From Closterium sp. NIES-65 (Eukaryota; Streptophyta; Zygnematophyceae; Desmidiales; Closteriaceae): DNA of 64,000 bases. Under the pieces are notes generated by a model that saw only the letters and a program-made list of their open reading frames with translations, searched no databases and was not told the origin of the DNA. Location: assembly GCA_948144175.1 (NCBI GenBank), contig CANXME010000407.1:26001-90000 (forward strand), written 5' to 3'. A program made the position numbers and the translations under genes. This document shows positions 7,956 through 57,840 of the stretch, in pieces. Positions within the stretch are counted from its first letter, which is position 1, and each line of letters opens with the position of its first letter.

Positions 7956-9954
7956 AACTGAAATTCTTTTTGGCATGTCTTGTCCTGCTCCAACTCCTTG
8001 TTGGGAGGAGTACCTGCTATGGCTGCTAAGTCACATTCACATTCAGTCAAGAATAAAGGGGTTTATTTTGAGTTTTGGACCCTGAATTTTATATCTGCAT
8101 ATGTACTTCAAGTATTTGTGTTGTCCTTTTGCTAATTATAGTAGTAAGAAGATTCTTGGTTTGTGTGCCACTTTTGCACTCATCAAAATAGAGCGTTCAG
8201 TTTGGCACCATTATCTCTAAACAAACCTACCGTAAACTGTAACGACTCAGACAAAATCGATAAATCCGATCGCCAGGCTCCGTTAAAACCCGTGTCCCAA
8301 ATCGCGGACCGCGAGGGTCAAGTTTTTAAAACTTGACGAAGTTGAGTGTCCAAGCTTTTGAAAGTCACGCACCTGCAATTTGGGACTTTCGAAGACAGAT
8401 TCAGAGCGTATTCCAAAGCACGAACACCATCCGAAGTGGCCCCACCCGAACTTCTTGGGGCTCAGGATGGTGTCTGTGTGGGGCAGGCCCCCACTCTTGA
8501 CTTTTGGGGTCGCAGGGTTGGCCAGAACGGTCGTCTGCGTCGTCTGACGCAGAGCTGGTTTGGTTTGCTTCGCGCCCAATAGAATCTGCCAGAACCCGTC
8601 GCAGTGTAGCCTCCCAAACGTCAAGTTCTGACTTCGCGGGCAATTGTGAAACTTGTGCCGCGAAATCGTTTTTCCCCCCGCTTTGAACATTAGATTTGGT
8701 TGACACTCGCGATCTGGCACTCCATCCCTTCCAACTCTATGCTTCTTGTTTCCCGTGCCTTGAAACCATACAAAACTTGCACTTGTCATAACACATTCGA
8801 CACCAACTACTAGCCAGCAAAGGTCCTCTCCCACCCATTCACAATGGCTCCTAGGAAAAAATGTGCTTTTCGGGCTCAGGCAGTGGAAGAACAGTCACCC
8901 CCTGTGCCATGCCCTGATCCTCCGTTTGTTGTCTGGATGAAGCAGCAGATGGACATGGGGATCAGTCGCCTTCGCCTCATTGGAGTCACGGACTCACAGG
9001 GCACTAGTTTTGTGACGTTAACTGGTCACGGTAACTCAGCCTGTCAGGTTCAATGTCCCAATCATACACCAACATGGCATGAAACCCCTTGTCGCATGAA
9101 GACGTGCAAGACGGTCGCATGTTACGTGGCCGTCAGCTCCAAAGTGTCTTGATGCCGAACCGCGTGGCGCAACATTGAAATTAGAATTTCCAACATTGCG
9201 GACCGCGTGGCCCAACTTCGGATGGTGTCCGTGCTTTGGAATACGCCCTCACTCACCAGGGGGAACCGAGGGTTGGCTGGGTCTCGCGAAAAAAACGAAC
9301 CTAGACGAAATTGCGAACTCTCGCCAAAGCCTACACCAGAAAAACTCCCTCTGGTCAACTTTTAAAAGCATGAACAATTTGGGCCGCCGGCTTTAAGGCA
9401 TAGAGCAGTGATAATCGCCATTTGCCATTTCTGCGACAGCTTTCTGACACCGTCGTGTCCCGCGCAGCTGCGCCCCACACACAAGCCCCCCTGGAGTGCT
9501 CGCTCCAGACCGCGAGAGCTTTCTGATCCTCCGCCATTTCACCGAAGTACCTCTAAGCCCTACTAGTTCCTTCGCGTGGTTATGCTCGGAGCTGCTCTCG
9601 TCGTAGCTCGGATCTCGCGTTCACACGTTGGCCTGATAGCAGTCGGCAACCTTTCTTGGGGGCTCATATGATTGGGATTTGATACGCTGTTTTAAAAACA
9701 GGGAGCCTGAATATTGTAGCTATGGTCGCAATGGTGTATGTTTGAGATTGCGAGCCATCGGGGACATCCACGGTCGACCGCGAGTGACAGCGAAGGCGGT
9801 TTGTGTACGAAGCAAGGAGATAATCAGGCATGATCTAGGATCCAGATCAATTTGATTAGCTAAACAACGATCTAAATCAGTGGCACGAGCGTCAAGCGTC
9901 GTGACCGTTGTTCGTTGATCGTTGATCGTTGAGCGTCGACCGTCGATCGTCGCG
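7956..9954. other. Intergenic region with an interrupted inverted repeat
   Basis: No supported gene. A 33-bp segment at about 8406-8438 is repeated as its reverse complement at about 9214-9246 with one mismatch (shared core gtgctttggaatacgc). A second phrase, gcggaccgcg, occurs near 8305 and 9198. A 102-codon frame lies between (8844-9152, MAPRKKCAFRAQ...), with no recognised domain. The arrangement could be a decayed inverted-repeat transposon. The right end holds the promoter region of the Rab enzyme gene. Confidence 0.4.
9765..9797 (+). repeat. Shadow copy of exon 1 start of the Rab enzyme gene
   Basis: 33 bp reading catccacggtcgaccgcgag and onward closely matches 9953-9986 (start of exon 1), with the ATG changed to ATC. 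It lies about 190 bp upstream. Confidence 0.7.
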
Positions 9955-12900
9955 ATGCACGGTCGACCGCGAGTGACGGTGAAGGCTGAGGGCAGCGCGG
10001 CGGGACAGCAGAAGGCGGCGGAGTCGAACAAGAAGGCTCTTCGGCTGCGCGCCTTGCAGGAGAAGGTGCTGACGTGGCACCAGCAGAACGTGTGAGTGGC
10101 TAAGGGGAACGCTAACATACCACTGGTAAGGCATTTTGCAGAGATCAAACTTGCACGGAGCTTTTGAGTCGACTCGAGAGTCATCAGGGATTGCAGGGTG
10201 CAGTGCTGTGCACCTCAGCTCCCCGCATCGCGTTTCCATGGATTTACCGCAAAGAAGCTCCCCCCCACACCCCTCCTCCTCCCTCCACCAGCCAGCGCTG
10301 CTCTGCTGGAGCAGAGCAGCGTGTACTTGTACGTGTACGAGTACGTGTACGAGTACGAGTACGTGTACGTGTACGTGTACGAGTACGTGTACGTGTATGA
10401 GTACGTGTACGTGTACGTGTACGTGTACGATTACGTGTAAGTTCACGTTTACGTGTACGTAGCATAGATCTACCACAAAAAGGCCTTCCGTCCCGCTCCC
10501 TCTTTCCCTCCCCACCCCCACTGCCCACCCTCTGCCAGTTCTATCCCCACCAGTTATTCGCCCGAGGCACTAGCCGCCAGCGCTGCTCTGCTGGAGCAGA
10601 GCCTCGACGTGTACGTGGCGTGGAACTATTCAAGAACGTGTACGCCTCCCCCTTTCCCTCCCCCGCCCCTTGTCCCTCTGCTAGAGCAGAGCCTCGACGT
10701 GTACGTGGCGTGGAACTATTCAAGAACTCTTGCACTCGAGGCGTGGAACTACCGCGAGGAGGCTTTCCATTCCACAAGAAGGCTTCCCTTCTTTGGCTGC
10801 CCTCCCTCCTGCCTTACCACTTCCCATCAGATTCTTGCTCGAGGCACTAGCCGCCATCTGCCCCTCATTCATTACTAGCCGCCATCTGCCCCTCATTCAT
10901 TACTAGCCGCCATCTGCCCCTAATTCATTACTAGCCGCCATCTGCCCCTCATTCATTACTAGCCGCCATCTGCCCCTCATTCATTACTAGCCGCCATCTG
11001 CCCCTCATTCATTACTAGCCGCCATCTGCCCCTCATTCATTACTAGCCGCCATCTGCCCCTCATTCATTACTAGCCGCCATCTGCCCCTCATTCATTACT
11101 AGCCGCCATCTGCCCCTCATTCATTACTAGCCGCCATCTGCCCCTCATTCATTACTAACCGCCATCTGCCCCTCATTCATTACTAGCCGCCATCTGCCCC
11201 TCATTCATTACTAGCCGCCATCTGCCCCTCATTCATTACTAGCCGCCATCTGCCCCTCATTCATTACTAGCCGCCATCTGCCCCTCATTCATTACTAGCC
11301 GCCATCTGCCCCTCATTCATTACTAGCCGAGCCGCCAGCGCTGCTCTGCAGGAACAGACACTCAATGTGTACTTGGCGTGGAACTGCCGCAAGAACGCTT
11401 CCCCCTTCCACCTCCCTCTCCTCCCTTTTTCCTCTGCAGGAGCAGAACCTCGATGTGCACGTGGCGTGGAACTACCTCTTTTTCCCCACTTAAAAGTGGC
11501 TTTCCCCCCTCCCCCCCCTCTTCCCTTTTTTTCCTGATTTCAGCTACTCGCCTGAGGCTCTAGCAGCCAGCGCAACTCTCCTAGAGCAGAACCCTGACGT
11601 GTATGTGGCGTGGAACTACCGCAAGAAGGCTCCCTTCTTCTCCTTCTCCCCTCCCTCTTTGCCTTTCAGTTACTCGCCAGAAGCACTAGCCGCCAGCGCT
11701 GCTCTCTTAGAACAAAACCCTGACGTGTATGTCACGTGGAACTACCGCAAGAAGGCGTTTGCCCACCGATGCGGTGCTCTGGAGGCAGGGGAGGGTGGGA
11801 GCAGGGAGGGGAAAGCGGTGCAGAGGGGTTTGGAGGTGAAAGAGGGGGAGAAGGAGGCGCAGGGGAAAGAGGGGCAGGGGGAGGGGGGGAAAGAGGCGCA
11901 AGGAGAGGGGGGATCAGGGGGGGGAGAGGTGGGGACGGATGGGGCAATGGGTGAGGCGGAGAGTGCAGGAGGGAGGGGTGACAAGAGGGGAGAGAGTGAA
12001 GTTGAGGGGAAGAATGATGGGAAGCAGGGAGAGGAGCAGGAGAGGGTGGAACGGGAGCGAGAGGAAAAGGCGAAGAAGGAAGAAGAGAAGAAGATAGAGG
12101 AAAGGAAGATAGAGGAACGGAAGATAGAGGAATGGAAGATAGAGGAACGGAAGATAGAGGAACGGAAGATCGAAGAAGCTAAGGGGAAGCTAGCAGACGA
12201 AGAGCTGAAGCTGGTGAGTGAGTAAACGGCGTGGCTGATGGTACCATTGGCATAACGTGCGAGTCTGACAATGGTACACTCACTGAGTCGCTCCTGAGAA
12301 TTCGAAAAAAACGGACGAAGATCTGTAACTGGTGAGTAGTTTTGAGTGACCAATAGTACGTTTGGCACAATAGCGAGTCTGCCAATACTACACTGGACTG
12401 GATGAGGAGGTTGGCTCAAACCAACCCCCCACCCCTCCTCTTAACTCATCCCCTCCCCCCTCCATTGCTACTCTCCCTCACACATGCAAAACAGATAGAA
12501 GCAGCGGTACGGCACCTGGCCTGGCACCACCGCAAGTGGCTTCTTGAGTCGCCTCAGAGATGTATCCTTTAACTCTCTCCGTTCCTCCTCTTCCCCCCAA
12601 ACACTCACATCAGATAGAAGCAGCGCTACGGTACGGACCAACCCCAAGTGCTACGGCGCCTGGCACGAGTCACCGCAAAGATCTATCCTTTAACTCTCTC
12701 CGTTCCTCCTCTTCCCCCCAAACACTCACATCAGATAGAAGCAGCGCTACGGTACGGACCAACCCCAAGTGCTACGGCGCCTGGCACGAGTCACCTCAAA
12801 TATCTATCCTTTAACTCTCTCCGTTCCTCCCCTCCCCTTAAACACACACAACAGATAGAAGCAGCACTATGGCGCCTGGCCTGGCACCACCGCAAGTGGC

Positions 12901-15900
12901 TTCTTGAGTCACCTCAGAAATGTATCCTTCAACTCTCCCTCTCCAACCCAACTTCTTCCAAACACTCGCAACAGATAGAAGCAGCCCTACGGACCAACCC
13001 CAAGTGCTACGGCGCCTGGCACCACCGCAAGTGGCTCTTCGCCCTCTCCTCCACCGAGCCTCTCCCAAGCCTCGGAGCCAACCTCGGGCCGAGCCTGCAG
13101 CAGGTTCGGATCAATCTGCGGACGGAGGCTCGGATCGCCCGGGAGCAGAAGCTGTTGGGGATGATGCTGAGTGCCGATGATCGGAACTTCCATGCCTGGG
13201 ACTACTGGAGGTGAGAGAGGGATTGAGAGCGGTATTGATGGGTATGGGTGGTGGTGATGCGGATGTTGCTGGGGATGATGCTGAGTGCCGATGATCGGAA
13301 CTTCCACGCCTGGGACTACTGGAGGTAACGGTGGTGAGGGGTGATGATGGGTGTGTATGGTGATATTGCAGGTTGATGCTGAGAGCAGATGATCGGAATT
13401 TCCATGCCTGGGAGTACTGGAGATGTTGTAGGGATTGAGAGCGGTGCTGATGGGTGGGTGGTGATGCAGATGCTGTGGGGTTACAACCTTGCTCGCCTGC
13501 CACCATTCAGTTCCACCCATCTCATCTTCTCAGTTCCACCCATCTCATCTTGTCAGTTCCACCCATCTCATCTTCTCAGTTCCACCCATCTCATCTTCTC
13601 AGTTCCACCCATCTCATCTTCTCAGTTCCACCCATCTCATCTTCTCAGTTCCACCCATCTCATCTTGTCAGTTCCACCCATCTCATCTTGTCAGTTCCAC
13701 CCATCTCATCTTGTCAGTTCCACCCATCTCATCTTGTCAGTTCCACCCATCTCATCTTGTCAGTTCCACCCATCTCATCTTGTCAGTTCCACCCATCTCA
13801 TCGTCTCAGTTCCACCCATCTCATCTTCTCAGTTCCACCCATCTCATCTTCTCAGTTCCACCCATCTCATCTTCTCAGTTCCACCCATCTCATCTTGTCA
13901 GTTCCACCCATCTCATCTTCTCAGTTCCACCCATCTCATCTTCTCAGTTCCACCCATCTCATCTTGTCAGTTCCACCCATCTCATCTTTTCAGTTCCACC
14001 CATCTCATCTTCTCAGTTCCACCCATCTCATCTTGTCAGTTCCACCCATCTCATCTTGTCAGTTCCACCCATCTCATCTTGTCAGTTCCACCCATCTCAT
14101 CTTGTCAGTTCCACCCATCTCATCTTGTCAGTTCCACCCATCTCATCTTCTCAGTTCCACCCATCTCATCTTCTCAGTTCCACCCATCTCATCTTGTCAG
14201 TTCCACCCATCTCATCTTGTCAGTTCCACCCATCTCATCTTGTCAGTTCCACCCATCTCATCTTCTCAGTTCCACCCATCTCATCATCTCAGTTCCACCC
14301 ATCTCATCTTGTCAGTTCCACCCATCTCATCTTGTCAGTTCCACCCATCTCATGTTCTCAGTTCCACCCATCTCATCTTATCAGTTCCACCCATCTCATC
14401 TTCTCAGTTCCACCCATCTCATCTTCTCAGTTCCACCCATCTCATCTTGTCAGTTCCACCCATCTCATCTTCTCAGTTCCACCCATCTCATCTTCTCAGT
14501 TCCACCCATCTCATCTTGTCAGTTCCACCCATCTCACCTTTTCAGTTCCACCCATCTCATCTTCTCAGTTCCACCCATCTCATCTTGTCAGTTCCACCCA
14601 TCTCATCTTGTCAGTTCCACCCATCTCATCTTGTCAGTTCCACCCATCTCATCTTGTCAGTTCCACCCATCTCATCTTGTCAGTTCCACCCATCTCATCT
14701 TCTCAGTTCCACCCATCTCATCTTCTCAGTTCCACCCATCTCATCTTGTCAGTTCCACCCATCTCATCTTGTCAGTTCCACCCATCTCATCTTGTCAGTT
14801 CCACCCATCTCATCTTCTCAGTTCCACCCATCTCATCTTGTCAGATCCACCCATCTCATCTTCTCAGTTCCACCCATCTCATCTTCTCAGTTCCGCCCAT
14901 CTCATCTTCTCAGTTCCACCCATCTCATCTTCTCAGATCCACCCATCTCATCTTCTCAGTTCCACCCATCTCATCTTCTCAGATCCACCCATCTCATCTT
15001 CTCAGTTCCACCCATCTCATCTTCTCAGTTCCACCCATCTCATCTTCTCAGATCCACCCATCTCATCTTCTCAGTTCCACCCATCTCATCTTCTCAGTTC
15101 CGCCCATCTCATCTTCTCAGTTCCACCCATCTCATCTTCTCAGTTCCACCCATCTCATCTTCTCAGTTCCACCCATCTCATCTTCTCAGTTCCACCCATC
15201 TCATCTTCTCAGTTCCACCCATCTCATCTTCTCAGTTCCACCCATCTCATCTTCTCAGTTCCACCCATCTCATCTTCTCAGTTCCACCCATCTGATCTTC
15301 TCAGTTCCACCCATCTCATCTTGTCAGTTCCACCCATCTCATCTTGTCAGTTCCACCCATCTCATCTTGTCAGTTCCACCCATCTCATCTTCTCAGTTCC
15401 ACCCATCTCATCTTGTCAGTTCCACCCATCTCATCTTGTCAGTTCCACCCATCTCATCTTCTCAGTTCCACCCATCTCATCATCTCAGTTCCACCCATCT
15501 CATCTTGTCAATTCCACCCATCTCATCTTGTCAGTTCCACCCATCTCATGTTCTCAGTTCCACCCATCTCATCTTATCAGTTCCACCCATCTCATCTTCT
15601 CAGTTCCACCCATCTCATCTTCTCAGTTCCACCCATCTCATCTTCTCAGTTCCACCCATCTCATCTTCTCAGTTCCACCCATCTCATCTTCTCAGTTCCA
15701 CCCATCTCATCTTCTCAGTTCCACCCATCTCATCTTGTCAGTTCCACCCATCTCATCTTCTCAGTTCCACCCATCTCATCTTGTCAGTTCCACCCATCTC
15801 ATCTTCTCAGTTCCACCCATCTCATCTTGTCAGTTCCACCCATCTCATCTTCTCAGTTCCACCCATCTCATCTTCTCAGTTCCACCCATCTCATCTTGTC

Positions 15901-18900
15901 AGTTCCACCCATCTCATCTTGTCAGTTCCACCCATCTCATCTTGTCAGTTCCACCCATCTCATCTTCTCAGTTCCACCCATCTAATCTTCTCAGTTCAAC
16001 CCATCTCATCTTCTCAGTTCCACCCATCTCATCTTCTCAGTTCCACCCATCTCATCTTGTCAGTTCCACCCATCTCATCTTGTCAGTTCCACCCATCTCA
16101 TCTTCTCAGTTCCACCCATCTCATCTTGTCAGTTCCACCCATCTCATCTTGTCAGTTCCACCCATCTCATCTTGTCAGTTCCACCCATCTCATCTTCTCA
16201 GTTCCACCCATCTCATCTTGTCAATTCCACCCATCTCATCTTGTCAGTTCCACCCATCTCATCTTCTCAGTTCCACCCATCTCATCTTGTCAGTTCCACC
16301 CATCTCATCTTGTCAGTTCCACCCATCTCATCTTGTCAGTTCCACCCATCCCATCTTGTCAGTTCCACCCATCTCATCTTGTCAGTTCCACCCATCTCAT
16401 CTTCTCAGTTCCACCCATCTCATCTTCTCAGTTCCACCCATCTCATCTTGTCAGGTCCACCCATCTCATCTTGTCAGTTCCACCCATCTCATCTTCTCAG
16501 TTCCACCCATCTCATCTTGTCAGTTCCACCCATCTCATCTTCTCAGTTCCACCCATCTCATCTTGTCAGTTCCACCCATCTCATGTTCTCAGTTCCACCC
16601 ATCTCATCTTATCAGTTCCACCCATCTCATCTTCTCAGTTCCACCCATCTCATCTTCTCAGATCCACCCATCTCATCTTCTCAGTTCCACCCATCTCATC
16701 TTGTCAGTTCCACCCATCTCATCTTCTCAGTTCCACCCATCTCATCTTGTCAGTTCCACCCATCTCATCTTCTCAGTTCCACCCATCTCATCTTGTCAGT
16801 TCCACCCATCTCATCTTCTCAGTTCCACCCATCTCATCTTGTCAGTTCCACCCATCTCATCTTCTCAGTTCCACCCATCTCATCTTCTCAGTTCCACCCA
16901 TCTCATCTTGTCAGTTCCACCCATCTCATCTTGTCAGTTCCACCCATCTCATCTTGTCAGTTCCACCCATCTCATCTTCTCAGTTCCACCCATCTCATCT
17001 TCTCAGTTCCACCCATCTCATCTTCTCAGTTCCACCCATCTCATCTTCTCAGTTCCACCCATCTAATCTTCTCAGTTCAACCCATCTCATCTTCTCAGTT
17101 CCACCCATCTCATCTTCTCAGTTCCACCCATCTCATCTTGTCAGTTCCACCCATCTCATCTTGTCAGTTCCACCCATCTCATCTTCTCAATTCCACCCAT
17201 CTCATCTTCTCAGTTCCACCCATCTCATCTTGTCAGTTCCACCCATCTCATCTTGTCAGTTCCACCCATCTCATCTTCTCAGTTCCACCCATCTCATCTT
17301 GTCAATTCCACCCATCTCATCTTGTCAGTTCCACCCATCTCATCTTCTCAGTTCCACCCATCTCATCTTGTCAGTTCCACCCATCTCATCTTGTCAGTTC
17401 CACCCATCTCATCTTGTCAGTTCCACCCATCCCATCTTGTCAGTTCCACCCATCTCATCTTGTCAGTTCCACCCATCTCATCTTCTCAGTTCCACCCATC
17501 TCATCTTCTCAGTTCCACCCATCTCATCTTGTCAGTTCCACCCATCTCATCTTGTCAGTTCCACCCATCTCATCTTGTCAGTTCCACCCATCTCATCTTG
17601 TCAGTTCCACCCATCTCATCTTGTCAGTTCCACCCATCTCATCTTCTCAGTTCCACCCATCTCATCTTGTCAGTTCCACCCATCTCATCTTCTCAGTTCC
17701 ACCCATCTCATCTTGTCAGTTCCACCCATCTCATCTTGTCAGTTCCACCCATCTCATCGTCTCAGTTCCACCCATCTCATGTTCTCAGTTCCACCCATCT
17801 CATCTTCTCAGTTCCACCCATCTCATCTTGTCAGTTCCACCCATCTCATCTTGTCAGTTCCACCTATCTCATCTTGTCAGTTCCACCCATCTCATCTTGT
17901 CAGTTCCACCCATCTCATCTTGTCAGTTCCACCCATCTCATCTTCTCAGTTCCACCCATCTCATCGTCTCAGTTCCACCCATCTCATCTTCTCAGTTCCA
18001 CCCATCTCATCTTCTCAGTTCCACCCATCTCATCTTCTCAGTTCCACCCATCTCATCCTGTCAGTTCCACCCATCTCATCTTGTCAGTTCCACCCATCTC
18101 ATCTTGTCAGTTCCACCCATCTTATCTTGTCAGTTCCACCCATCTCATCTTCTCAGTTCCACCCATCTCATCTTGTCAGTTCCACCCATCTCATCTTGTC
18201 AGTTCCACCCATCTCATCTTCTCAGTTCCACCCATCTCATCTTCTCAGTTCCACCCATCTCATCTTCTCAGTTCCACCCATCTAATCTTCTCAGTTCCAC
18301 CCATCTCATCTTCTCAGTTCCACCCATCTCATCTTCTCAGTTCCACCCATCTCATCTTCTCAGTTCCACCCATCTCATCTTCTCAGTTCCACCCATCTCA
18401 TCTTCTCAGTTCCACCCATCTCATCTTGTCAGTTCCACCCATCTCATCTTGTCAGTTCCACCCATCTCATCTTGTCAGTTCCACCCATCTCATCTTCTCA
18501 GTTCCACCCATCTCATCTTTTCAGTTCCACCCATCTCATCTTGTCAGTTCCACCCATCTCATCTTCTCAGTTCCACCCATCTCATCATCTCAGTTCCACC
18601 CATCTCATCTTGTCAGTTCCACCCATCTCATCTTGTCAGTTCCACCCATCTCATGTTCTCAGTTCCACCCATCTCATCTTATCAGTTCCACCCATCTCAT
18701 CTTCTCAGTTCCACCCATCTCATCTTCTCAGTTCCACCCATCTCATCTTCTCAGATCCACCCATCTCATCTTCTCAGTTCCACCCATCTCATCTTGTCAG
18801 TTCCACCCATCTCATCTTCTCAGTTCCACCCATCTCATCTTGTCAGTTCCACCCATCTCATCTTCTCAGTTCCACCCATCTCATCTTGTCAGTTCCACCC

Positions 18901-27900: not shown

Positions 27901-30900
27901 CTTGTCAGTTCCACCCATCTCATCTTCTCAGTTCCACCCATCTCATCTTCTCAGTTCCACCCATCTCATCTTCTCAGTTCCACCCATCTCATCTTGTCAG
28001 TTCCACCCATCTCATCTTGTCAGTTCCACCCATCTCATCTTATCAGTTCCACCCATCTCATCTTGTCAGTTCCACCCATCTCATCTTGTCAGTTCCACCC
28101 ATCTCATCTTGTCAGTTCCACGCATCTCATCTTGTCAGTTCCACCCATCTCATCTTCTCAGTTCCACCCATCTCATCTTGTCAGTTCCACCCATCTCATC
28201 TTGTCAGTTCCACCCATCTCATCTTGTCAGTTCCACCCATCTCATCTTGTCAGTTCCACCCATCTCATCTTGTCAGTTCCACCCATCTCATCTTGTCAGT
28301 TCCACCCATCTCATCTTGTCAGTTCCACCCATCTCATCTTCTCAGTTCCACCCATCTCATCTTGTCAGTTCCACCCATCTCATCTTGTCAGTTCCACCCA
28401 TTTCATCTTGTCAGTTCCACCCATCTCATCTTCTCAGTTCCACCCATCTCATCTTGTCAGTTCCACCCATCTCATCTTATCAGTTCCACCCATCTCATCT
28501 TCTCAGTTCCACCCATCTCATCCTGTCAGTTCCACCCATCTCATCTTGTCAGTTCCACCCATCTCATCTTGTCAGTTCCACCCATCTCATCTTCTCAGTT
28601 CCACCCATCTCATCTTCTCAGTTCCACCCATCTCATCTTCTTAGTTCCACCCATCTCATCTTGTCAGTTCCACCCATCTCATCTTCTCAGTTCCACCCAT
28701 CTCATCTTCTCAGTTCCACCCATCTCATCTTGTCAGTTCCACCCATCTCATCTTCTCAGTTCCACCCATCTCATCTTGTCAGTTCCACCCATCTCATCTT
28801 GTCAGTTCCACCCATCTCATCTTGTCAGTTCCACCCATCTCATCTTATCAGTTCCACCCATCTCATCTTGTCAGTTCCACCCATCTCATCTTCTCAGTTC
28901 CACCCATCTCATCTTCTCAGTTCCACCCATCTCATCTTCTCAGTTCCACCCATCTCATCTTGTCAGTTCCACCCATCTCATCTTGTCAGTTCCACCCATC
29001 TCATCTTGTCAGTTCCACCCATCTCATCTTCTAAGTTCCACCCATCTCATCTTGTCAGTTCCACCCATCTCATCTTGTCAGTTCCACCCATCTCATCTTG
29101 TCAGTTCCACCCATCTCATCTTGTCAGTTCCACCCATCTCATCTTGTCAGTTCCACCCATCTCATCTTGTCAGTTCCACCCATCTCATCTTGTCAGTTCC
29201 ATCCATCTCATCTTCTCAGTTCCACCCATCTCATCTTCTCAGTTCCACCCATCTCATCTTCTCAGTTCCACCCATCTCATCTTCTCAGTTCCACCCATCT
29301 CATCTTCTCAGTTCCACCCATCTCATCTTGTCAGTTCCACCCATCTCATCTTCTCAGTTCCACCCATCTCATCTTGTCAGTTCCACCCATCTCATCTTGT
29401 CAGTTCCACCCATCTCATCTTCTCAGTTCCACCCATCTCATCTTCTCAGTTCCACCCATCTCATCTTGTCAGTTCCACCCATCTCATCTTGTCAGTTCCA
29501 CCCATCTCATCTTCTCAGTTCCACCCATCTCATCTTCTCAGTTCCACCCATCTCATCTTCTCAGTTCCACCCATCTCATCTTCTCAGTTCCACCCATCTC
29601 ATCTTGTCAGTTCCACCCATCTCATCTTCTTAGTTCCACCCATCTCATCTTGTCAGTTCCACCCATCTCATCTTCTCAGTTCCACCCATCTCATCTTGTC
29701 AGTTCCACCCATCTCATCTTCTCAGTTCCACCCATCTCATCTTGTCAGTTCCACCCATCTCATCTTCTCAGTTCCACCCATCTCATCTTGTCAGTTCCAC
29801 CCATCACATCTTGTCAGTTCCACCCATCTCATCTTCTCAGTTCCACCCATCTCATCTTGTCAGTTCCACCCATCTCATCTTGTCAGTTCCACCCATCTCA
29901 TCTTCTCAGTTCCACCCATCTCATCTTGTCAGTTCCACCCATCTCATCTTGTCAGTTCCACCCATCTCATCTTGTCAAATCCACCCATCTCATCTTGTCA
30001 GTTCCACCCATCTCATCTTGTCAGTTCCACCCATCTCATCTTGTCAGTTTCACCCATCTCATCTCATCAGTTCCACCCATCTCATCTTGTCAGTTCCACC
30101 CATCTCATCTTGTCAGTTCCACCCATCTCATCTTGTCAGTTCCACCCACCTCATCTTGTGAGTTCCACCCATCTTATCTTGTCAGTTCCACCCATCTCAT
30201 CTTGTCAGTTCCACCCATCTCATCTTCTCAGTTCCACCCATCTCATCTTGTCAGTTTCACCCATCTCATCTTGTCAGTTCCACCCATCTCATCTTGTCAG
30301 TTCCACCCATCTCATCTTCTCAGTTCCACCCATCTCATCTTGTCAGTTCCACCCATCTCATCTTCTCAGTTCCACCCATCTCATCTTGTCAGTTCCACCC
30401 ATCTCATCTTGTCAGTTCCACCCATCTCATCTTCTCAGTTCCACCCATCTCAGCTTGTCAGTTCCACCCATCTCATCTTTTCAGTTCCACCCATCTCATC
30501 TTGTCAGTTCCACCCATCTCATCTTGTCAGTTCCACCCATCTCATCTTGTCAGTTCCACCCATCTCATCTTGTCAGTTTCACCCATCTCATCTCATCAGT
30601 TCCACCCATCTCATCTTGTCAGTTCCACCCATCTCATCTTGTCAGTTCCACCCATCTCATCTTGTCAGTTCCACCCATCTCATCTTGTCAGTTCCACCCA
30701 TCTTATCTTGTCAGTTCCACCCATCTCATCTTGTCAGTTCCACCCATCTCATCTTCTCAGTTCCACCCATCTCAGCTTGTCAGTTTCACCCATCTCATCT
30801 TGTTAGTTCCACCCATCTCATCTTGTGAGTTCCACCCATCTCATCTTGTCAGTTCCACCCATCTTATCTTGTCAGTTTCACCCATCTCATCTTGTCAGTT

Positions 30901-33900
30901 CCACCCATCTCATCTTCTCAGTTCCACCCATCTCATCTTCTCAGTTCCACCCATCTCATCTTCTCAGTTCCACCCATCTCATCTTCTCAGTTCCACCCAT
31001 CTCATCTTGTCAGTTCCACCCATCTCATCTTGTCAGTTCCACCCATCTCATCTTGTCAGTTCCACCCATCTCATCTTGTCAGTTCCACCCATCTCATCTT
31101 CTCAGTTCCACCCATCTCATCTTGTCAGTTCCGCCCATCTCATCTTGTCAGTTCCACCCATCTCCTCTTGTCAGTTCCACCCATCTCATCTTGTCAGTTC
31201 CACCCATCTCATCTTCTCAGTTCCACCCATCTCATCTTCTCAGTTCCACCCATCTCATCTTGTCAGTTCCACCCATCTCATCTTCTCAGTTCCACCCATC
31301 TCATCTTGTCAGTTCCACCCATCTCATCTTGTCAGTTCCACCCATCTCATCTTCTCAGTTCCACCCATCTCATCTTGTCAGTTCCACCCATCTCATCTTC
31401 TCAGTTCCACCCATCTCATCTTCTCAGTTCCACCCATCTCATCTTCTCAGTTCCACCCATCTCATCTTCTCAGTTCCACCCATCTCATCTTCTCAGTTCC
31501 ACCCATCTCATCTTCTCAGTTCCACCCATCTCATCTTGTCAGTTCCACCCATCTCATCTTCTCAGTTCCACCCATCTCATCTTATCAGTTCCACCCATCT
31601 CATCTTGTCAGTTCCACCCATCTCATCTTCTCAGTTCCACCCATCTCATCTTCTCAGTTCCACCCATCTCATCTTGTCAGTTCCACCCATCTCATCTTGT
31701 CAGTTCCACCCATCTCATCTTCTCAGTTCCACCCATCTCATCTTCTCAGTTCCACCCATCTCATCTTCTCAGTTCCACCCATCTCATCTTCTCAGTTCCA
31801 CCCATCTCATCTTGTCAGTTCCACGCATCTCATCTTCTCAGTTCCACCCATCTCATCTTGTCAGTTCCACCCATCTCATCTTCTCAGTTCCACCCATCTC
31901 ATCTTGTCAGTTCCACCCATCTCATCTTCTCAGTTCCACCCATCTCATCTTGTCAGTTCCACCCATCTCATCTTCTCAGTTCCACCCATCTCATCTTGTC
32001 AGTTCCACCCATCTCATCTTGTCAGTTCCACCCATCTCATCTTCTCAGTTCCACCCATCTCATCTTGTCAGTTCCACCCATCTCATCTTCTCAGTTCCAC
32101 CCATCTCATCTTGTCAGTTCCACCCATCTCATCTTGTCAGTTCCACCCATCTCATCTTCTCAGTTCCACCCATCTCAGCTTGTCAGTTCCACCCATCTCA
32201 TCTTTTCAGTTCCACCCATCTCATCTTGTCAGTTCCACCCATCTCATCTTGTCAGTTCCACCCATCTCATCTTGTCAGTTCCACCCATCTCATCTTGTCA
32301 GTTTCACCCATCTCATCTCATCAGTTCCACCCATCTCATCTTGTCAGTTCCACCCATCTCATCTTGTCAGTTCCACCCATCTCATCTTGTCAGTTCCACC
32401 CATCTCATCTTGTCAGTTCCACCCATCTTATCTTGTCAGTTCCACCCATCTCATCTTGTCAGTTCCACCCATCTCATCTTCTCAGTTCCACCCATCTCAT
32501 CTTGTCAGTTTCACCCATCTCATCTTGTTAGTTCCACCCATCTCATCTTGTCAGTTCCACCCATCTCATCTTGTCAGTTCCACCCATCTCATCTTGTCAG
32601 TTTCACCCATCTCATCTTGTCAGTTCCACCCATCTCATCTTCTCAGTTCCACCCATCTCATCTTCTCAGTTCCACCCATCTCATCTTCTCAGTTCCACCC
32701 ATCTCATCTTCTCAGTTCCACCCATCTCATCTTCTCAGTTCCACCCATCTCATCTTCTCAGTTCCACCCATCTCATCTTGTCAGTTCCACCCATCTCATC
32801 TTGTCAGTTCCACCCATCTCATCTTGTCAGTTCCACCCATCTCATCTTCTCAGTTCCACCCATCTCATCTTGTCAGTTCCACCCATCTCATCTTCTCAGT
32901 TCCACCCATCTCATCTTCTCAGTTCCACCCATCTCATCTTGTCAGTTCCACCCATCTCATCTTGTCAGTTCCACCCATCTCATCTTGTCAGTTCCACCCA
33001 TCTCATCTTCTCAGTTCCACCCATCTCATCTTCTCAGTTCCACCCATCTCATCTTGTCAGTTCCACCCATCTCATCTTCTCAGTTCCACCCATCTCATCT
33101 TCTCAGTTCCACCCATCTCATCTTCTCAGTTCCACCCATCTCATCTTCTCAGTTCCACCCATCTCATCTTCTCAGTTCCACCCATCTCATCTTCTCAGTT
33201 CCACCCATCTCATCTTCTCAGTTCCACCCATCTCATCTTCTTAGTTCCACCCATCTCATCTTGTCAGTTCCACCCATCTCATCGTCTCAGTTCCACCCAT
33301 CTCATCTTGTCAGTTCCACCCATCTCATCTTGTCAGTTCCACCCATCTCATCTTGTCAGTTCCACCCATCTCATCTTGTCAGTTCCACCCATCTCATCTT
33401 GTCAGATCCACCCATCTCATCTTGTCAGTTCCACCCATCTCATCTTGTCAGTTCCACCCATCTCATCTTGTCAGTTCCACCCATCTCATCTTGTCAGTTC
33501 CACCCATCTCATCTTCTCAGTTCCACCCTTCTCATCTTGTCAGTTCCACCCATCTCATCTTGTCAGTTCCACCCATCTCATCTTCTCAGTTCCACCCATC
33601 TCATCTTCTCAGTTCCACCCATCTCATCTTGTCAGTTCCACCCATCTCATCGTCTCAGTTCCACCCATCTCATCTTGTCAGTTCCACCCATCTCATCTTG
33701 TCAGTTCCACCCATCTCATCTTGTCAGTTCCACCCATCTCATCTTGTCAGTTCCACCCATCTCATCTTGTGAGATCCACCCATCTCATCTTGTCAGTTCC
33801 ACCCATCTCATCTTGTCAGTTCCACCCATCTCATCTTGTCAGTTCCACCCATCTCATCTTGTCAGTTCCACCCATCTCATCTTGTCAGTTCCACCCATCT

Positions 33901-35783
33901 CATCTTGTCAGATCCACCCATCTCATCTTGTCAGTTCCACCCATCTCATCTTGTCAGATCCACCCATCTCATGGACCTCTCAGGAACCCTCTCCTTGTTT
34001 CCGTTCCATTCAGTACCGGTCCTTGCTTCGTCAGTCATGCTGTCCGTGCCCATCCCAATCCAACCATGCATGCAACCCAACCATGCATGCAACCCAACCA
34101 TGCATGCAACCCAACCATGCATGCAACCCAACCATGCATGCAACCCAACCATGCATGCAACCCAACCATGCATGCAACCCAACCATGCATGCAACCAGGT
34201 TCATGTCACATGTGGCCCGCATGTCACCATCCAAGGACTTGGGTTTCACTATGGAGCGAATCAACGCCAACTTCAGCAACTACAGCGCGTGGCACGGCCG
34301 CAGGTGAGTCGTTCAGCTAGGACACGCATGCTCAAAGGGTGCTAGGAGGTGTATCAGGACCTGACCAACTTCTTTCGTCTGTGCGCAACCAAGGACCTGG
34401 CCTTATGCTCTTCACCATGCATCAAATCGAATCAACGCCAACTTCAGCAACTACAGCGCGTGGCACAGCAGGACGTGAGACGAGGGAGGGGAGGAGGGAG
34501 GAGAGAAACAGCTGCGTCCAAGCCAGGGCTGTCCCAGGCAGCCCTGTGAGTTAAACCGTGTGAGCGATTTTTTAGAACTCTCTAATATTGCTTAGCCAGG
34601 ACTATCCCAGGCAGCCCTGTGAGTTGGTGCGGCAGGCCTTCTTCACCGAGCCTGACGACCAGAGCGGGTGGATGTATCAGCACTGGCTGCTGCAGCAGAT
34701 CCTGCTGCCCCTGCCGCCCCTGCCGCCCCTGCTGCCCCTGCCGCCCTAGTTTTCTTCCCCTCCGCTCTCAACCCCTTTGCGTTCCCTCTTCCCCCTTTCG
34801 CTCCGCCCAACAGCAAGCTGCTACCAATGCTCCACGCGTGCCCACCACCACCAACCACGCCCACTGCACCAGAGGCAAAGGGGTTGCCGCAGGCAGCATT
34901 GGAGGAGGAGTGTGAGTTGGTGCGCCAGGCCTTCTTTACGGAGCCAGATGATCAGAGTGGGTGGATGTACCAGCATTGGCTGCTGCAGCAGATCCTGCCG
35001 CCCCTGCCGCCCCGCCTCCTCTCCTCCTGGCCTTCGCCTGGAAGCACTGTCTGCTACTCCTCACCAGAAAATCCACCTGAGAAATCTTCTGGAGGCGATT
35101 CTGCAGCTGGGGAGGGCGTTTCCGAATCCTCTCCCAGAGCTCCGAGGCGGGTTCGGATGTCGGCGGTGCTGGTGTTCTCCGAACCTGTGGTGGGGGTGAC
35201 AAGAGAGAGTGTGACTCTAACGGGGGCTGGGATGGAGGTTGGCGAGTGGAGGGCTGTGGGGGGCGAAGAGGCGTGGCTTTCCGGGCGGCAGTCTGGCTGT
35301 GAGAGGGAAACGGGCGGCGATGTGGGGCCGAAGAGTGCGTCTGTATGGATGGCGCAAGTCGTTTTCTCCACATCTCATGAAGTCAGAGCAGCTGCTGCTT
35401 CCACTGCAGCTACTGATGCTGCTTTCACTGCAGCTACTGATGCTGCTTCTTCTGCTGCTTCTGCGGGTGGGAGGGAAACAGGTGCGGCTGCCTCATCACC
35501 CACCATCCTGGTCTCGTGGGTGTTCGCCCATCCATCTGCCATCCGCTCTGCTGCCACTTGCCAGTCCCTCCTGCTCCCCCACACGGACAGAACCTGCAGC
35601 AACGGTGGCAACGGCAGCAGCAGCTTCACGCTACAGCTGCAAGGAAGCTCGTTGATTCTGCCACAGATGGATGTTTCTGAGACCAATGGCACTCACTCGC
35701 AAGCGACTGTGCCGCCCGTGAACTTCCCCACTCATGACTGGTCCAACTTCCGCTGGCCCTCCTCCTCCCCTTCGCCTCCTCCC

Positions 35784-35833
<50 letters not shown>

Positions 35834-38593
35834 TGCTCCTGCTGCGCCTGCTGCTGCTGATGGTGATGTTGCTGCCAGTGGTGCTGCCGCTAGTGCTGGT
35901 GATGCTGCAGGAGGGAGCGAGCAGTGGCGAGTGGATGTGGTCCAACGGGAGATTGACATGTGTCGCGAGCTCATTGACCTGGAACCAGACAGGTGTGTGC
36001 GTGGTATTCAGTGCGATGTGTCGTGTGACTTGGACCATGCCGTGTCTGTGTGGTGTGGTCCCTCCAACACCAAGAAGAATAGCTCAACCCATTTCTCGTA
36101 TCCCGTCTCCTTTCCTCCTGCTTCCAGCTTCGGTTCCTCTCTCGCACTCTCAAACCCAAAACCCCGCTCCCCTTCCCTTCCTGCTCCCCCTTGCTTGCAG
36201 CAAGTTAGCTATCCCCTCCTTCGCCCACCTGTTCTCCACTTCTTGAGTCAACTAAAACAATCCCCCATTCCCCCCTCCCTGCTTCCGCCCCTTTCCAACC
36301 CTTCAACCATCGTCTTCCAGCAAGTGGGCTCTCCTCTCTCTCTCCCGCCTCCTCTCCACTCATTGAGTCAAATGTCCTCCTACTCTCCCCCCTCCCCCCT
36401 CCACCCCTTCCCCCCCCCCCCCCTCTCCTCGCTCTTCCAGCAAGTGGGCTCTCCTCTCTCTCGCCCGCCTCCTCTCCACACGCCGCCAGCTCCACCACCT
36501 CTTGCCGAACCTACCCGTGCAGGCTCGGCAAGATGCCGAGGCTTGTGAAGAGGTTCGGTCGTTGCTTCGACGGCTGGTGGGGATTGACCCATACCACAAG
36601 GAGTATTACCGAGACCTACTAGAAGCGCTGGAGGGGGATGAGGTGAGTAAGGGTGTGTGTCTAAGAGGAGCATGATGTCTGTGTCGACTCTGGTCAAAAG
36701 GTGGGGGTCGATCCATACTACAAGGAGTATTACCGGGACCTGCTAGAAGCGCTGGAGGGGGATGAGGTGAGTAAGGGTGTGTGTACGGAGAGTGTGTGTA
36801 AGGAGAGTGTGTGAAAAGGTGAGGGTGTGTGTGCAAGAATTGGGGTTGTGAATGAGGTGAGGAACAGCAACAGCATTGGCTGGTGGGGATTGGTCCATAT
36901 CACCAGGAGTATTACCGGGACCTGCTAGAAGCACTGGAGGGAGAGGAGGTGAGGAGGGTGTGTGAATGAGGTGAGGGTGTTTGGATGAGTGTCCCACGTG
37001 GGGTTGAGTGAGTGTCCAACGTGGGGGTGAGTGAGTGCCCCACGTGGGGGTGAGTGAGTGTCCCATGTGGGGGTGAATGAGTGCCCCACGTGGGGGTGAG
37101 TGAGTGTCCCATGTGGGGGTGAGTGAGTGCCCCACGTGGGAGTGAGTGAGTGCCCCACGTGGGGGTGAGTGAGTGCCCCACGTGGGAGTGAGTGAGTGCC
37201 CCACGTGGGGGTGAGTGAGTGCCCCACGTGGGAGTGAGTGAGTGCCCCACGTGGGAGTGAGTGAGTGCCCCACGTGGGGGTGAGTGAGTGCCCCACGTGG
37301 GGGGTGAGCGCTCACCTGGGGGTGAAAGCCCGTGTGTGTCTAACCGGACCTTAGGTTTTCAATCTTGTCCCCTCGTTTGTCTCACACATCTTTGCACCTC
37401 CTCCCATTGCCCCCATCTCCAATTCACCCCATCAGGACACACCCACCACAATAAACACAACCAACACCTCCAGCAGCAGCAGCAGCAGCAGCACCAGCAT
37501 CAGCACCACCACCACCACAGTGTGTCTGTCCCATCGGCACCTCTCCTGCCTGCCAGCGTCCCACCGCCTGCTGCCAGTCTCCACGCTGCTCCTCGACCAC
37601 AACCGCATCTCCACCCTCACAGGTGTGTCGCCCAAAAAGTAGTCACAAAAGAATCGCACACAACCGCACCACAACACCTGCAGCAGTCTGCTGCCAGTCT
37701 CCACGCTGCTCCTCGACCACAACCGCATCTCCACCCTCACAGGTGCGCCGCTCCTCTCGCCCACCTCCCCTCTCTGCATGCTCTGGTAACATCCCAACAC
37801 TTATCTGCGCAAGCTCCCTCCGCCCAACCCCCCCAGGATTCGAGGCGCTTCAGAATCTGCAAGTGCTGGACCTCTCCCACAACCACATCGCCTTCTCCTC
37901 AGCCATCGCTCCTCTCGCCCACCTGCCCGCCCTCCGCACTCTCTCCCTCGCCCACAACCTCCTCGGAGCCAAACCAGTCGACCGCCACCGCTACTGCCAC
38001 CCCTCCCCACGATGCTCCCGCCACCACCAATATTGCCACCCCTCTCCATGGTTGCTTCCCTCCCCCCCCCCATCTGTTCCCCTCTCCTCCCGTCTGTTCA
38101 CTTCTCCCATCTGTTCCCTCCCATCCCCTCCCCCTTCCATCCTCCAGGTTTTGAGGCGCTTCAGAATCTGCAAGTCCTGGACCTCTCTCACAACAGCATC
38201 GCCTTCTCATCAGCCATCGCTCCTCTCGCCCACCTGCCCGCCCTCCGCGCTCTCTCCCTGGCTCACAACCTCCTGGGAGGCAAACCAGTTGACCGCCACC
38301 GCTACTGCCACCCCTCCCCACGATGCAACCGGTTCCCCTCTTGGAACATGCCAAGTAACAGCACGGGGGACGAAGTTTCCTCGTCTGCCGAAGCAGCAGC
38401 AGCAGCAGCAGCAACAGTGGATCTGGTTCAGCAGCATCCGAACCTGTGGACGGTGCTGCAATGCCTGGGCGGGCTGCGCCAGGTGGCAGTGCTTGATTTG
38501 ACGGGGAATCCTGTTTGTCAGTGGGATGGGTATCGGCAGCTGGTTCTTTCCCTGCTGCCACAGCTGGTTCTCTTCGATGGGGGCTCTGTGTGA
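9955..38593 (+). CDS. RGTA: Rab geranylgeranyltransferase (GGTase-II) alpha subunit, with plant-type insert and C-terminal LRRs
   Basis: The alpha subunit pairs with a beta subunit and Rab escort protein to attach geranylgeranyl groups to C-terminal cysteines of Rab GTPases in the cytosol. Exons inferred: 9955-10091, 11670-12213, 12975-13210, 34199-34303, 34814-35992, 36441-36642, 37436-37622, 38148-38593. They total 3036 nt (1011 aa) with consistent phase at every junction. The start MHGRPRVTVK matches plant orthologues. Prenyltransferase alpha repeats follow: NPDVYVTWNYRKK, NPKCYGAWHHRKW, RNFHAWDYWRF, NFSNYSAWHGRS, DQSGWMYQHWLL. Then come an Ig-like insert (VLVFSEPVVGVT), poly-Ala (about residue 665), SKWALLSLARLL, and LRRs (TLLLDHNRIS, LQVLDLSHN, VAVLDLTGNPVCQ). 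Oddities: a charged insert of about 140 residues with KIEER repeats after repeat 1; Trp instead of Arg in the third repeat; a 21-kb third intron; size well above the roughly 570-700 aa usual for the family. Confidence 0.9.
10321..10461 (+). repeat. gtacgt/gagtac microsatellite
   Basis: About 140 bp of hexameric cgtgta and cgagta units (gtgtacgtgtacgagtac). It starts inside an exon-2 copy at the codons for VYV, as though it grew from the exon's own gtgtacgt. Confidence 0.85.
10846..11330 (+). repeat. 28-bp minisatellite (about 17 units) in RGTA intron 1
   Basis: Unit contains tactagccgccatctgccc. The first unit begins inside an exon-2 copy (gaggcactagccgcca) and the array ends by returning to exon-2-like sequence (gccgccagcgctgctctg). 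Units are nearly identical. Confidence 0.92.
12100..12175 (+). repeat. 15-bp coding repeat (KIEER) in RGTA exon 2
   Basis: Five to six units of aagatagaggaacgg encode tandem KIEER/KIEEW in the charged insert, just before the conserved LADEELKL block. The length of 15 preserves frame. Confidence 0.85.
12494..12974 (+). repeat. Four tandem shadow copies of the 5' part of RGTA exon 3
   Basis: The acceptor plus exon start cag|atagaagcagc recurs at 12495, 12614, 12735 and 12855 before the real exon at 12975, so spacing is 119, 121, 120 and 120 bp. Copies 1 and 4 keep the AWHHRKW-like part (gcctggcaccaccgcaagtgg) but lack the NPKCYG codons. Copies 2 and 3 keep accaaccccaagtgctacgg but are damaged after it. 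Confidence 0.9.
13258..13425 (+). repeat. Two shadow copies of the 3' end of RGTA exon 3
   Basis: After the real exon-3 end at 13210, the segment atgatgctgagtgccgatgatcgg...tactggag returns at 13258-13327 (followed by gtaacg, a usable donor) and at 13372-13425 (donor lost, gagatg). Confidence 0.88.
13509..33972 (+). repeat. 20.46-kb satellite array of a 23-bp unit inside RGTA intron 3
   Basis: The monomer is 23 bp with core ttccacccatctcatctt followed by ctcag or gtcag. The unit start agttcc at 13509 is exactly 889 x 23 bp from the last unit start at 33956, so there is no net indel over the array. Variation is mostly a C/G switch in the tail, with rare gatcc, tttcac, catcatc, ctaatc and ccgtctc variants. 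The monomer is about 74% pyrimidine on the sense strand and lacks stop codons in all three forward frames, producing spurious forward frames of up to about 3000 codons. The flanking exons 3 and 4 splice in phase, so the array is intronic. Confidence 0.97.
34063..34198 (+). repeat. 17-bp minisatellite abutting the RGTA exon-4 acceptor
   Basis: Eight units of ccatgcatgcaacccaa. The last unit is altered to gcaaccag, and that cag is the splice acceptor of exon 4 (34199). Confidence 0.9.
34339..34475 (+). repeat. Shadow copy of RGTA exon 4
   Basis: Contains accaaggacctggcctt and aatcaacgccaacttcagca through gcgtggcac, matching exon 4 (34199-34303), and ends in a donor-like ac|gtgaga. The copy reads WHSR where exon 4 reads WHGR. 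It could act as an alternative to exon 4, but its upstream part is out of frame with exon 3. Confidence 0.75.
34523..34749 (+). repeat. Shadow copies of the RGTA exon-5 segment FTEPDDQSGWMYQHW
   Basis: 34605-34749 repeats the stretch encoding the fifth prenyltransferase repeat, after cag|gcagccctgtgag, then runs into a (ctgccgccc)n tract and a stop. A 30-bp start of the same copy is also seen at 34523-34552. The copy used in the gene is at about 34910-35000 within exon 5. Confidence 0.82.
36201..36440 (+). repeat. Two shadow copies of the 5' part of RGTA exon 6
   Basis: Acceptor plus exon start (cag|caagt) recurs at 36201 and 36321 before the real exon at 36441: spacing exactly 120 and 120 bp. 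Both copies lose homology after about 50 bp, at a tgagtcaa phrase. Confidence 0.88.
36700..36948 (+). repeat. Two shadow copies of the 3' part of RGTA exon 6
   Basis: The segment for DPYHKEYYRDLLEALEGDE returns ending at 36766 and 36948, each followed by a donor (gtgagt, gtgagg). The last copy has GEE instead of GDE. Confidence 0.88.
36989..37312 (+). repeat. 23-bp minisatellite with a CACGTG palindrome per unit, RGTA intron 6
   Basis: About 14 units containing gtgagtgagtgccccacgtg. Nearly every unit holds ccccacgtgggg (a G-box core, CACGTG) and a gtgagt donor-like hexamer. It begins just after the last exon-6 copy, near its gtgagg donor. Confidence 0.9.
37687..37742 (+). repeat. Shadow copy of the RGTA exon-7 LRR segment
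   Basis: 56 bp encoding LLPVSTLLLDHNRISTLTG repeats 37567-37622 exactly 120 bp downstream, again followed by a donor (gtgcgc). Spliced in place of exon 7 it would lack the preceding part. Confidence 0.88.
37837..38000 (+). repeat. Shadow copy of RGTA exon 8 (LRR), phase-compatible
   Basis: cag|gattcgaggcgcttcagaat repeats the exon-8 start (38148) 311 bp upstream in the same phase and keeps frame through LQVLDLSHNHIAFSSAIAP and LSLAHNLLGAKPVD. It could be an alternative LRR exon if a donor exists beyond it; I see no strong one. Confidence 0.82.
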
Positions 38594-39061
38594 AGCAGCG
38601 CTGCTGCTGGTGCTGCTCCAGATGCGGCTGCGGTTGGTTCATTCTCTGCTGCCATAGTTAGTGCTCAATGGAGGGTGTGTGACGGGTGGAGGTGGGGAAG
38701 GACACTGCTCTAAGCACTCCTGCTGCACAGTTCTACTACCGTAAGTCTTGATTCTCCTGCTGCATTTGATGCCCTCCCGGATTCGTGTGAGCACAAGGCC
38801 TTGAAAGTGAGGCCATGAAAAATGCGACTGTCCTTGTTGCCGTGTTGGTTCGTCTAGTGAGCAACTCTAATGTCATTGAAGAAACTCTTTCTGATGGAAT
38901 GGAACATTACAAAAGCATTCTCTTTCCTAGCCTAATGTATTACGTTACCTAGCTGCACATACGGTATTTCCTAGTGTAGGTGCATGCATGAGAGGTGCTT
39001 CTGCAATGTTCCCACACCACCCCCATCATCATAGACTGTCCTTGTTGGAATGCAGTACAAG

Positions 39062-41396: not shown

Positions 41397-41724
41397 TGTT
41401 ACGGGTGCAATGAATCAAAGTAGCGAGAATTGCACTAAGGTGTCAAACGAGTACCAAATGTGAGCGAAGGCATGAGCGAACATTTATACGCGAAACATGC
41501 AAACGGTAACGCGGTGCGTGCGAGCTTAGCTAGTGCTACGCTCGAGCAAGGCTTGGGCTAGTCCCGAAGCGTAGGCCGACACGGCCATGCCAGCAGTGCG
41601 AGGTTTGGTGAAAACAGTGTGCGTGAAGTCGGCGAAGCCCCGTTAGCAGTAACGGGCGAACAACGGTTGTTGCTGTACGCGATGTAGTCGGCCTCCGTAA
41701 GGAATGCCGAGAAAATTCCTTACA
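41397..41724 (-). repeat. 3' LTR of the Gypsy element
   Basis: 328 bp, nearly identical to 48671-48998 (a handful of substitutions), indicating fairly recent insertion. Confidence 0.94.
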
Positions 41725-48487: not shown

Positions 48488-48670
48488 TTCGAAGGGCGTC
48501 GGCTCGTCTTAGTCTAGGCGCAGTCGTGGCTGTACGCGTTTACGAGAGAACGCGAGGACAACGGCTCCTAGGTGCTAAGGTACGTGAGTACCTTCGAGTG
48601 AGAAATCAAAAGTTGATTTCCTGAGGTGCGGAGATGCGCGGTCCGAAAGAAAGGGGCTCTGAATACCAAG

Positions 48671-57754: not shown

Positions 57755-57840
57755 CAAACAAATTACCCTAGCTTCCTACAGTGTGAAGTCAACTCCACAC
57801 AATCCAGTAGCCCACGTAGTCCATTCGCCAAACCTGCTGC

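Follow-up and report, generated by a model that had tools for sequence, protein, structure and literature searches.

Tandemly duplicated alternative exons are neighbouring copies of one exon. Internal gene duplications were reportedly treated by Gao and Lynch in 2009 (cited in PMC4974935), and a model put forward by Rogers in 1989 is said to belong to the same field; in it, a tandem duplication gives rise to a new intron whose AG and GT come from the duplicated exon. Synthesis-dependent strand annealing, or one-sided invasion followed by end joining, would leave an intact exon, a leftover end and filler between the two. In the potato RdRp gene, a short tandem duplication across an intron-exon border created a new intron in one event (PMC4974935).

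Partial exon duplications are known as single cases; in Closterium sp. NIES-65 we find them beside most of the sampled exons, in three gene groups (34 of 47 exons). A search of the open-access literature found no description of genome-wide exon-end copies of this kind. We take the strain as a desmid of the C. peracerosum-strigosum-littorale (C. psl.) complex; vegetative cells are haploid. The assembly that we searched comprises 874 Mb in 2400 contigs and was the single source of DNA; all echo frequencies given below are samples of the NIES-65 genome.

Shadow copies around the exons of RGTA

The window, a 64-kb stretch of this assembly (C407:26001-90000), carries an intact RGTA gene of eight exons on the plus strand, with a spliced frame of 1011 amino acids without internal stop. 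The protein has the Pfam domains PPTA and LRR (alpha repeats of the prenyltransferase type, and leucine-rich repeats at the end), its closest relative with a solved structure is the RabGGTase alpha (1dce), and the top protein matches of spliced RGTA are Closterium proteins.

As the earlier note on this DNA had claimed, every RGTA exon is echoed (Table 1). When the exons were compared with the gene's own non-satellite noncoding sequence, 18 same-strand matches representing all eight exons exceeded a threshold of 36, above the top score in 40 dinucleotide-shuffled sets (33); on the reverse strand of the same sequence no echo passed the threshold, the top score being 27. Of the 4046 bp of RGTA intron outside satellites, echoes take up 1115 bp, and all 17 intron echoes derive from an exon bordering the same intron. 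The copy numbers claimed were recovered for exon 1 (one), exon 2 start (about six), exon 3 start (four) and end (two), exon 4 end (one), exon 6 start (two) and end (two), exon 7 (one) and exon 8 start (one), while for exon 5, credited with one or two, a single copy was found, whose reading frame meets a stop shortly afterwards. The exon 8 interior piece, the exon 8 end copy and the exon 2 end copy had not been listed; the last of these shows 78% identity in two other RGTA loci. The splice site said to be typical of the copies is no requirement: the exon 1 and exon 8 end copies lack one and the exon 5 copy starts inside the exon. In the exon 2 shadow nearest to its source, the acceptor lies 126 bp upstream of the real one.

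Table 1. Functional exons of RGTA, their partial copies and the intron 3 satellite (window positions)
Feature	Position	Strand	Remarks
Exon 1 start copy	9766..9797	+	29/32 identical; 5' of start codon, without splice site
Exon 1 (functional)	9955..10091	+	spliced open frame, MHGRPR start
Exon 2 start, short copy (27 bp)	10291..10317	+	exact match to a stretch of another exon 2 copy
Exon 2 start copy with AG acceptor	10551..10628	+	64/78 identical
Exon 2 start, partial copy	10676..10727	+	98% over 52 bp to preceding copy (10551..10628)
Exon 2 start, 25-bp match	10742-10766		extra to the about six copies
Exon 2 start copy	11330..11398	+	exon-versus-intron search
Exon 2 start, partial copy	11432..11476	+	sequence match
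Exon 2 start copy with acceptor	11538..11630	+	75/87 exon, 6/6 intron columns
Exon 2 (functional)	11670..12213	+	spliced frame
Exon 2 end with donor / its copy	12196-12280 / 12314-12394	+	73% in window
Exon 3 start, four copies and preceding intron end	12460..12957	+	partly 121-bp tandem array
Exon 3 (functional)	12975..13210	+	spliced frame
Exon 3 end, copy 1	13259..13326	+	61/66 exon columns
Exon 3 end, copy 2	13371..13466	+	47/52 exon, 36/46 intron columns
23-bp satellite, intron 3	13507..33972	+	about 890 units
Exon 4 (functional)	34199..34303	+	spliced frame
Exon 4 end copy	34428..34482	+	43/47 exon, 7/8 intron columns
Exon 5 copy	34618..34733	+	begins 97 bp inside exon; 102/116 identical
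Exon 5 (functional)	34814..35992	+	spliced frame
Exon 6 start, weak farther copy	36169..36239	+	30/39 exon columns
Exon 6 start copy with acceptor	36269..36359	+	38/39 exon, 40/56 intron columns
Exon 6 (functional)	36441..36642	+	spliced frame
Exon 6 end, copy 1 with donor	36700..36784	+	61/67 exon, 18/18 intron columns
Exon 6 end, copy 2 with donor	36878..36964	+	62/71 exon, 15/17 intron columns
Exon 7 (functional)	37436..37622	+	spliced frame
Exon 7 end copy with donor	37688..37751	+	55/55 exon, 7/9 intron columns
Exon 8 interior piece	37749..37784	+	83% over 36 bp
Exon 8 start copy with acceptor	37816..38015	+	166/179 exon, 17/23 intron columns
Exon 8 (functional)	38148..38593	+	spliced frame
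Exon 8 end copy	38630..38681	+	3' of stop codon; score 23 vs maximum 17 in 1000 shuffles

An exon 4 search of the assembly recovered three further RGTA loci, one on contig C2336 and two on C2145, and with them the exon 4 shadow at all four loci. Each of the three carries copies of the same eight exons, with copy numbers differing among loci at exon 2 and at the start of exon 3. The array at the start of exon 3 repeats a 121-bp unit in tandem with 93% matches, intron included. In the window this array is longer than at the other loci by two stretches, one of 124 bp and one of 216 bp, which implies that tandem gain or loss of units is recent. With badly aligned stretches excluded, the share of sites that vary among the four loci is 12/916 in shadows, 15/1557 in introns and 36/2991 in exons.

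The RGTA introns also hold five tandem arrays, together about 21.6 kb, of which 20.5 kb consists of the 23-bp unit in intron 3. This satellite is present only in the RGTA of the window and absent from the other three loci; many of its units contain CATCTTGTCAG, with a resemblance to a 3' splice site. In a 28-bp array at 10846-11329 we find ACTAGCCGCCA, which is part of exon 2; to judge by this match, the array may have arisen from an exon 2 shadow. Such satellites contradict the earlier view that mid-intron sequence is not copied, which is nearly right elsewhere (about 6 of 56 repeat components at chaperonin loci look non-exonic, see below).

Once arrays with periods of 50 or less had been masked, the window contains 48 direct and 3 inverted local repeats, 33 of the direct ones within RGTA. 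Window-wide self-comparison revealed no echoes in the Phi_1 gene or in the gene at 39-40.5 kb. By contrast, four local same-strand repeats occur in a neighbouring gene at 2.9-4.9 kb that may be of the leucine-rich repeat type; those at 2947-3866 measure 57-94 bp, and some have GT donors resembling the RGTA echoes. The 3' end of RGTA and the next gene (38385-39925) recur as a segmental duplicate at 57837-59559, 79-89% identical, whose RGTA fragment is interrupted by an in-frame stop and carries an exon 8 end tandem copy of its own (57954-58060 / 58079-58182). Two direct repeat pairs, 41396-41724 / 48670-48998 (98% identical) and 49330-49749 / 57200-57619 (96% identical), flank retrotransposon-like frames on the minus strand and are probably LTRs.

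Echoes in chaperonin and proteasome genes

Exon-end echoing is confirmed beyond RGTA, and it occurs in three unrelated gene groups of NIES-65. The suggestion that a local process repeatedly duplicates exon ends, on one strand, is supported for the chaperonin and proteasome genes as well; it does not extend to every gene of the window or to every exon of these two unrelated families. In all three groups the arrangement is that of a border-crossing tandem duplication, with a same-strand partial copy next to its source.

A profile search with the chaperonin family PF00118 gave 93 matches at 30 loci, the genes being mostly near-identical pairs. Same-strand copies of the matched exon lie within about 1.5 kb at 21 of the 30 loci (10 of 15 distinct exons), and reverse-strand echoes at none of the 30. 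With more exons annotated, 17 of 24 have echoes and 7 do not; exon places were taken from 87 of the 93 profile matches, six rows at a neighbour's profile positions being excluded as echoes. The 21 upstream matches all fall in the first half of their exon, and the 18 downstream ones all in the second half.

At 15 chaperonin loci, after arrays with periods of 30 or less had been masked, we counted 102 direct repeats and 1 inverted. Annotated exons are contained in 30 of the 56 repeat components, and such exons make up 6747 of 44900 unmasked bp. About 20 of the remaining 26 components read as chaperonin-like in translation, as judged by eye from known motifs of the family, which leaves about 6 of non-exonic appearance; a Pfam check of component peptides recognised 5 of 10, three clearly and two at E 0.07.

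In the proteasome family (PF00227), 9 of 15 exons have echoes and 6 do not, a count that includes one stretch, L057, chosen after its echo had been seen in the profile table (8 of 14 without it) and that excludes L052 and L053, though both match the family exactly as L051 does. No reverse-strand echo was found in the proteasome set, and 25 of 26 matches have the expected geometry, upstream copies matching the exon start and downstream copies the exon end. At 846-1025, L057 has a proteasome-like exon with an in-frame stop, three upstream copies and two downstream copies, and this exon may itself be a relic. Because of the stop, L057 was excluded from the analyses of coding constraint, base composition, CpG and simulated flanks.

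Chance similarity is rejected as the source of the echoes in all three gene groups, and inverted or dispersed copying by the ratios of direct to inverted repeats in the window and at the 15 chaperonin loci. Nor do the RGTA copies resemble introner or transposon insertions, which would place one element sequence in unrelated introns: every RGTA intron echo comes from a bordering exon.

Extent and divergence of the copies

The copies consist mainly of exon. In 39 exon-copy pairs from the chaperonin and proteasome genes, with splice borders placed heuristically, the exon part has a median length of 90 bp and is the longer one in 37 pairs, the intron part has a median of 8 bp (quartiles 3 and 18), and lax scoring raises this second median to 27 bp. 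The spacer from exon to copy has a median of 75 bp (31 border-touching pairs). A simulated homologous flank as long as the observed spacers aligns almost fully up to 30% divergence, over 33 bp at 40% and over 1 bp at 50%, and the exon parts of the copies are roughly 75-100% identical to their source. In RGTA, intron flanks at the tandem offset score above 500 shuffles in 5 of 10 tests, with 61-68% identity; those at exons 4, 5 and 7 do not. The exon 7 copy has 0 differences in 55 exon bases, yet its flank is non-matching. Given the 8-bp intron median and the unmatched spacer, most copies look unlike fresh tandem units, although plain tandem repeats do occur among them.

The shadows show no coding constraint and are in all likelihood non-functional relics, not alternative exons. 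Among 72 exon-copy pairs (1904 codons) there are 211 nonsynonymous (N) and 375 synonymous (S) differences; nonsense accounts for 8 of the 211 N changes (3.8%, with 4.4% expected without constraint), and the length of 40 of the 41 gaps is not divisible by three. This conclusion rests on the unconstrained share of nonsense changes together with the frame-breaking gaps, and the same two counts overturned the coding constraint on shadows that codon-position counts of 30/20/77 had suggested. Recent differences in RGTA have an N:S of 8:4 against 13:31 for old ones (P 0.04); in the chaperonins the ratios are 4:3 and 92:160 (P 0.43), and pooling both gives P 0.025. By our own reckoning, the pooled recent ratio of 12:7 leaves free drift and mild constraint indistinguishable.

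Some annotated proteins nevertheless include shadows. The exon 2 shadow at 11538..11630 is coded in P0001 (NIES-64), P0002 and P0003 (NIES-65) and P0005 (Naga37s-1), and the exon 8 shadow is also included in P0002 and P0003; in P0004 and P0006 the exon 2 shadow was not seen. From these protein sequences we read the included shadows as similarity-based annotation or occasional splicing. In the models P0002 and P0005, Phi_1 sequence is moreover joined to RGTA, probably through faulty annotation.

Exons and copies differ synonymously more often than expected if only the exon had been purged while the copy drifted freely for an equal time. On that expectation, 29 of 50 differences in 10 RGTA pairs should be N and the observed N:S is 15:35 (0 of 2000 simulations as low); in 24 chaperonin pairs the figures are 146 of 252 and 92.5:159.5 (0 of 500). 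An exon branch four-fold longer than that of the copy fits both sets. Outside CpG, the chaperonin and proteasome pairs give 90:111 with 118 N expected under equal branches (0 of 1000), but doubling the length of the exon branch gives an acceptable fit (P 0.15); since this smaller asymmetry suffices there, CpG mutability explains part of the excess, not all of it. GC-biased conversion was rejected as its source, differences with exon GC and shadow AT numbering 89 against 78 of the reverse, without bias. Across 34 pairs, S counts are nearly even (dispersion 1.36, P 0.08), N counts are overdispersed (2.10, P 0.0002) and the two are uncorrelated (rho 0.19). A single age per pair rarely reproduces both dispersions (joint 0.0003 to 0.006, depending on age spread), and a fixed template divergence with variable copy age fits better; it should be noted that this argument is post hoc and uses small counts.

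Origin of the shadows and comparison with known systems

We tentatively favour, at a little short of an even chance, a genome-wide process of which the shadows are relics: an exon breaks, one end invades a homologous and probably diverged gene copy, synthesis runs on beyond the exon border, and end joining completes the repair. The breaks, the strand invasion, the end joining and the diverged template are things that we infer. A double-strand break would occur in or at an exon, and one broken end would invade a homologous gene copy; the rest of the exon, the splice signal and some intron would be copied before the end was released, and this copied end would meet the other broken end by end joining. 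The product would be an intact exon, a copied stretch of intron and then the old truncated exon end as an intron relic, lying downstream if the left end had been extended and upstream if the right end had. With a diverged template, either a gene copy or an allele, whose introns did not match, invasion would be possible in exons only and homology would stop at the splice site. The exon border would then be rewritten, the spacer would be foreign intron, and differences between exon and relic would be mainly synonymous, with fixed template divergence and varied copy ages giving even S and overdispersed N.

The predicted end of homology near the exon border is observed, although such a limit could have other origins. 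Repair from a diverged homolog fits better because of this sharp limit, together with the synonymous excess and a spacer that finds no match. Also in its favour, Kawaguchi and colleagues (PMC10407611) describe, for the C. psl. complex, genome-wide gene copy number variation, one strain of hybrid origin and recombination between sequences of different origin. Several results count against it. The exon 4 search yielded four near-identical copies and no diverged RGTA template, which could, however, have been lost at segregation; the chaperonin genes, too, come mostly as near-identical pairs; the exon branch need be only twofold longer outside CpG; half of the RGTA flanks tested match at the tandem offset; lax scoring extends the intron part to 27 bp; and the exon 7 copy is identical to its source with an unmatched flank. 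The earlier proposal of repair-coupled duplication is supported in part: it accounts better than plain tandem duplication for copies that stop near the exon border, but not for the start of exon 3, where the array is a plain tandem repeat.

Recurrent plain tandem duplication in units of 100-300 bp, which needs no exon-specific mechanism, is a real possibility, if one that we doubt. Units straddling a border would be tolerated with one exon left intact, intron-only units would decay twice as fast and be missed, and introns would be short relative to the unit. The geometry is exactly as this predicts (39 of 39 chaperonin and 25 of 26 proteasome matches), as it would be after any tandem duplication that selection tolerates, and the exon 3 start array, its 124- and 216-bp gaps in the other RGTA loci and the five of ten flanks above shuffles all speak for it. 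It sits poorly with the median of 8 bp of intron, since under equal decay copies with exon parts this similar should have a mostly alignable flank, and it must assume unequal exon and copy branches for the synonymous excess, even outside CpG. Old tandem duplicates in which gene conversion homogenised the exon part, while the unconverted intron part drifted away, would account for the high exon identity, the lost flanks and the absent coding constraint. At 11607-11608 of the exon 2 shadow the other three RGTA loci carry the exon's two bases, in line with conversion; yet N and S would afterwards accumulate in the drift ratio, without a synonymous excess, and we consider this origin improbable.

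That excess is what alternative or accessory exons under protein-coding selection would produce, and four annotated proteins do include the exon 2 shadow, two of them the exon 8 shadow too. Against such exons stand the unconstrained nonsense share, the frame-breaking gaps, the 8 N to 4 S recent changes, a variability among the RGTA loci like that of introns (12/916 and 15/1557) and the two protein models without the exon 2 shadow, which together make this account very improbable. Assembly error, raised in the earlier note as something that might undo its claim, has in its favour that all DNA came from one assembly; the copies are degenerate and common to four RGTA loci on three contigs and to paired chaperonin loci, and protein models of NIES-64 and Naga37s-1 carry the exon 2 echo too, so that its probability is next to negligible.

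A stronger form of the repair reading that we favour seems to us rather unlikely: diverged homologs would have served time and again as templates for rewriting exons, hybrid zygotes being one possible setting, with the old ends left as intron relics. Break repair would be confined to starting in exons, the introns of the parental lineages having ceased to match. If true, it would give an exon-by-exon fossil record of inter-lineage repair, with intron growth as a by-product.

If general, the process would make introns grow and supply cryptic splice sites. Echoes would then mislead gene prediction, and annotated Closterium proteins already include some. As relics they would be countable traces of local DNA repair, each with a direction, a breakpoint and an age, which makes the location of breaks and the choice of repair template directly testable.

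Compared with the systems described so far, the Closterium echoes are closest in form to the potato RdRp case, which shares with them a short border-crossing tandem duplication and a partial exon copy in an intron. They differ from that case in affecting 34 of 47 exons with up to about six copies each, and in that homology mostly ends near the splice site. With internal gene duplication, as reportedly treated by Gao and Lynch (2009), and with the Rogers (1989) model they share the duplication of segments within one gene, but the Closterium copies are intronic and not kept as coding. Unlike tandem alternative exons, they are partial and carry frameshifts and nonsense changes. Relative to synthesis-dependent strand annealing or one-sided invasion, finally, the proposal for Closterium is drawn from the anatomy of the copies: an intact exon, a leftover end beside it and unmatched sequence between.
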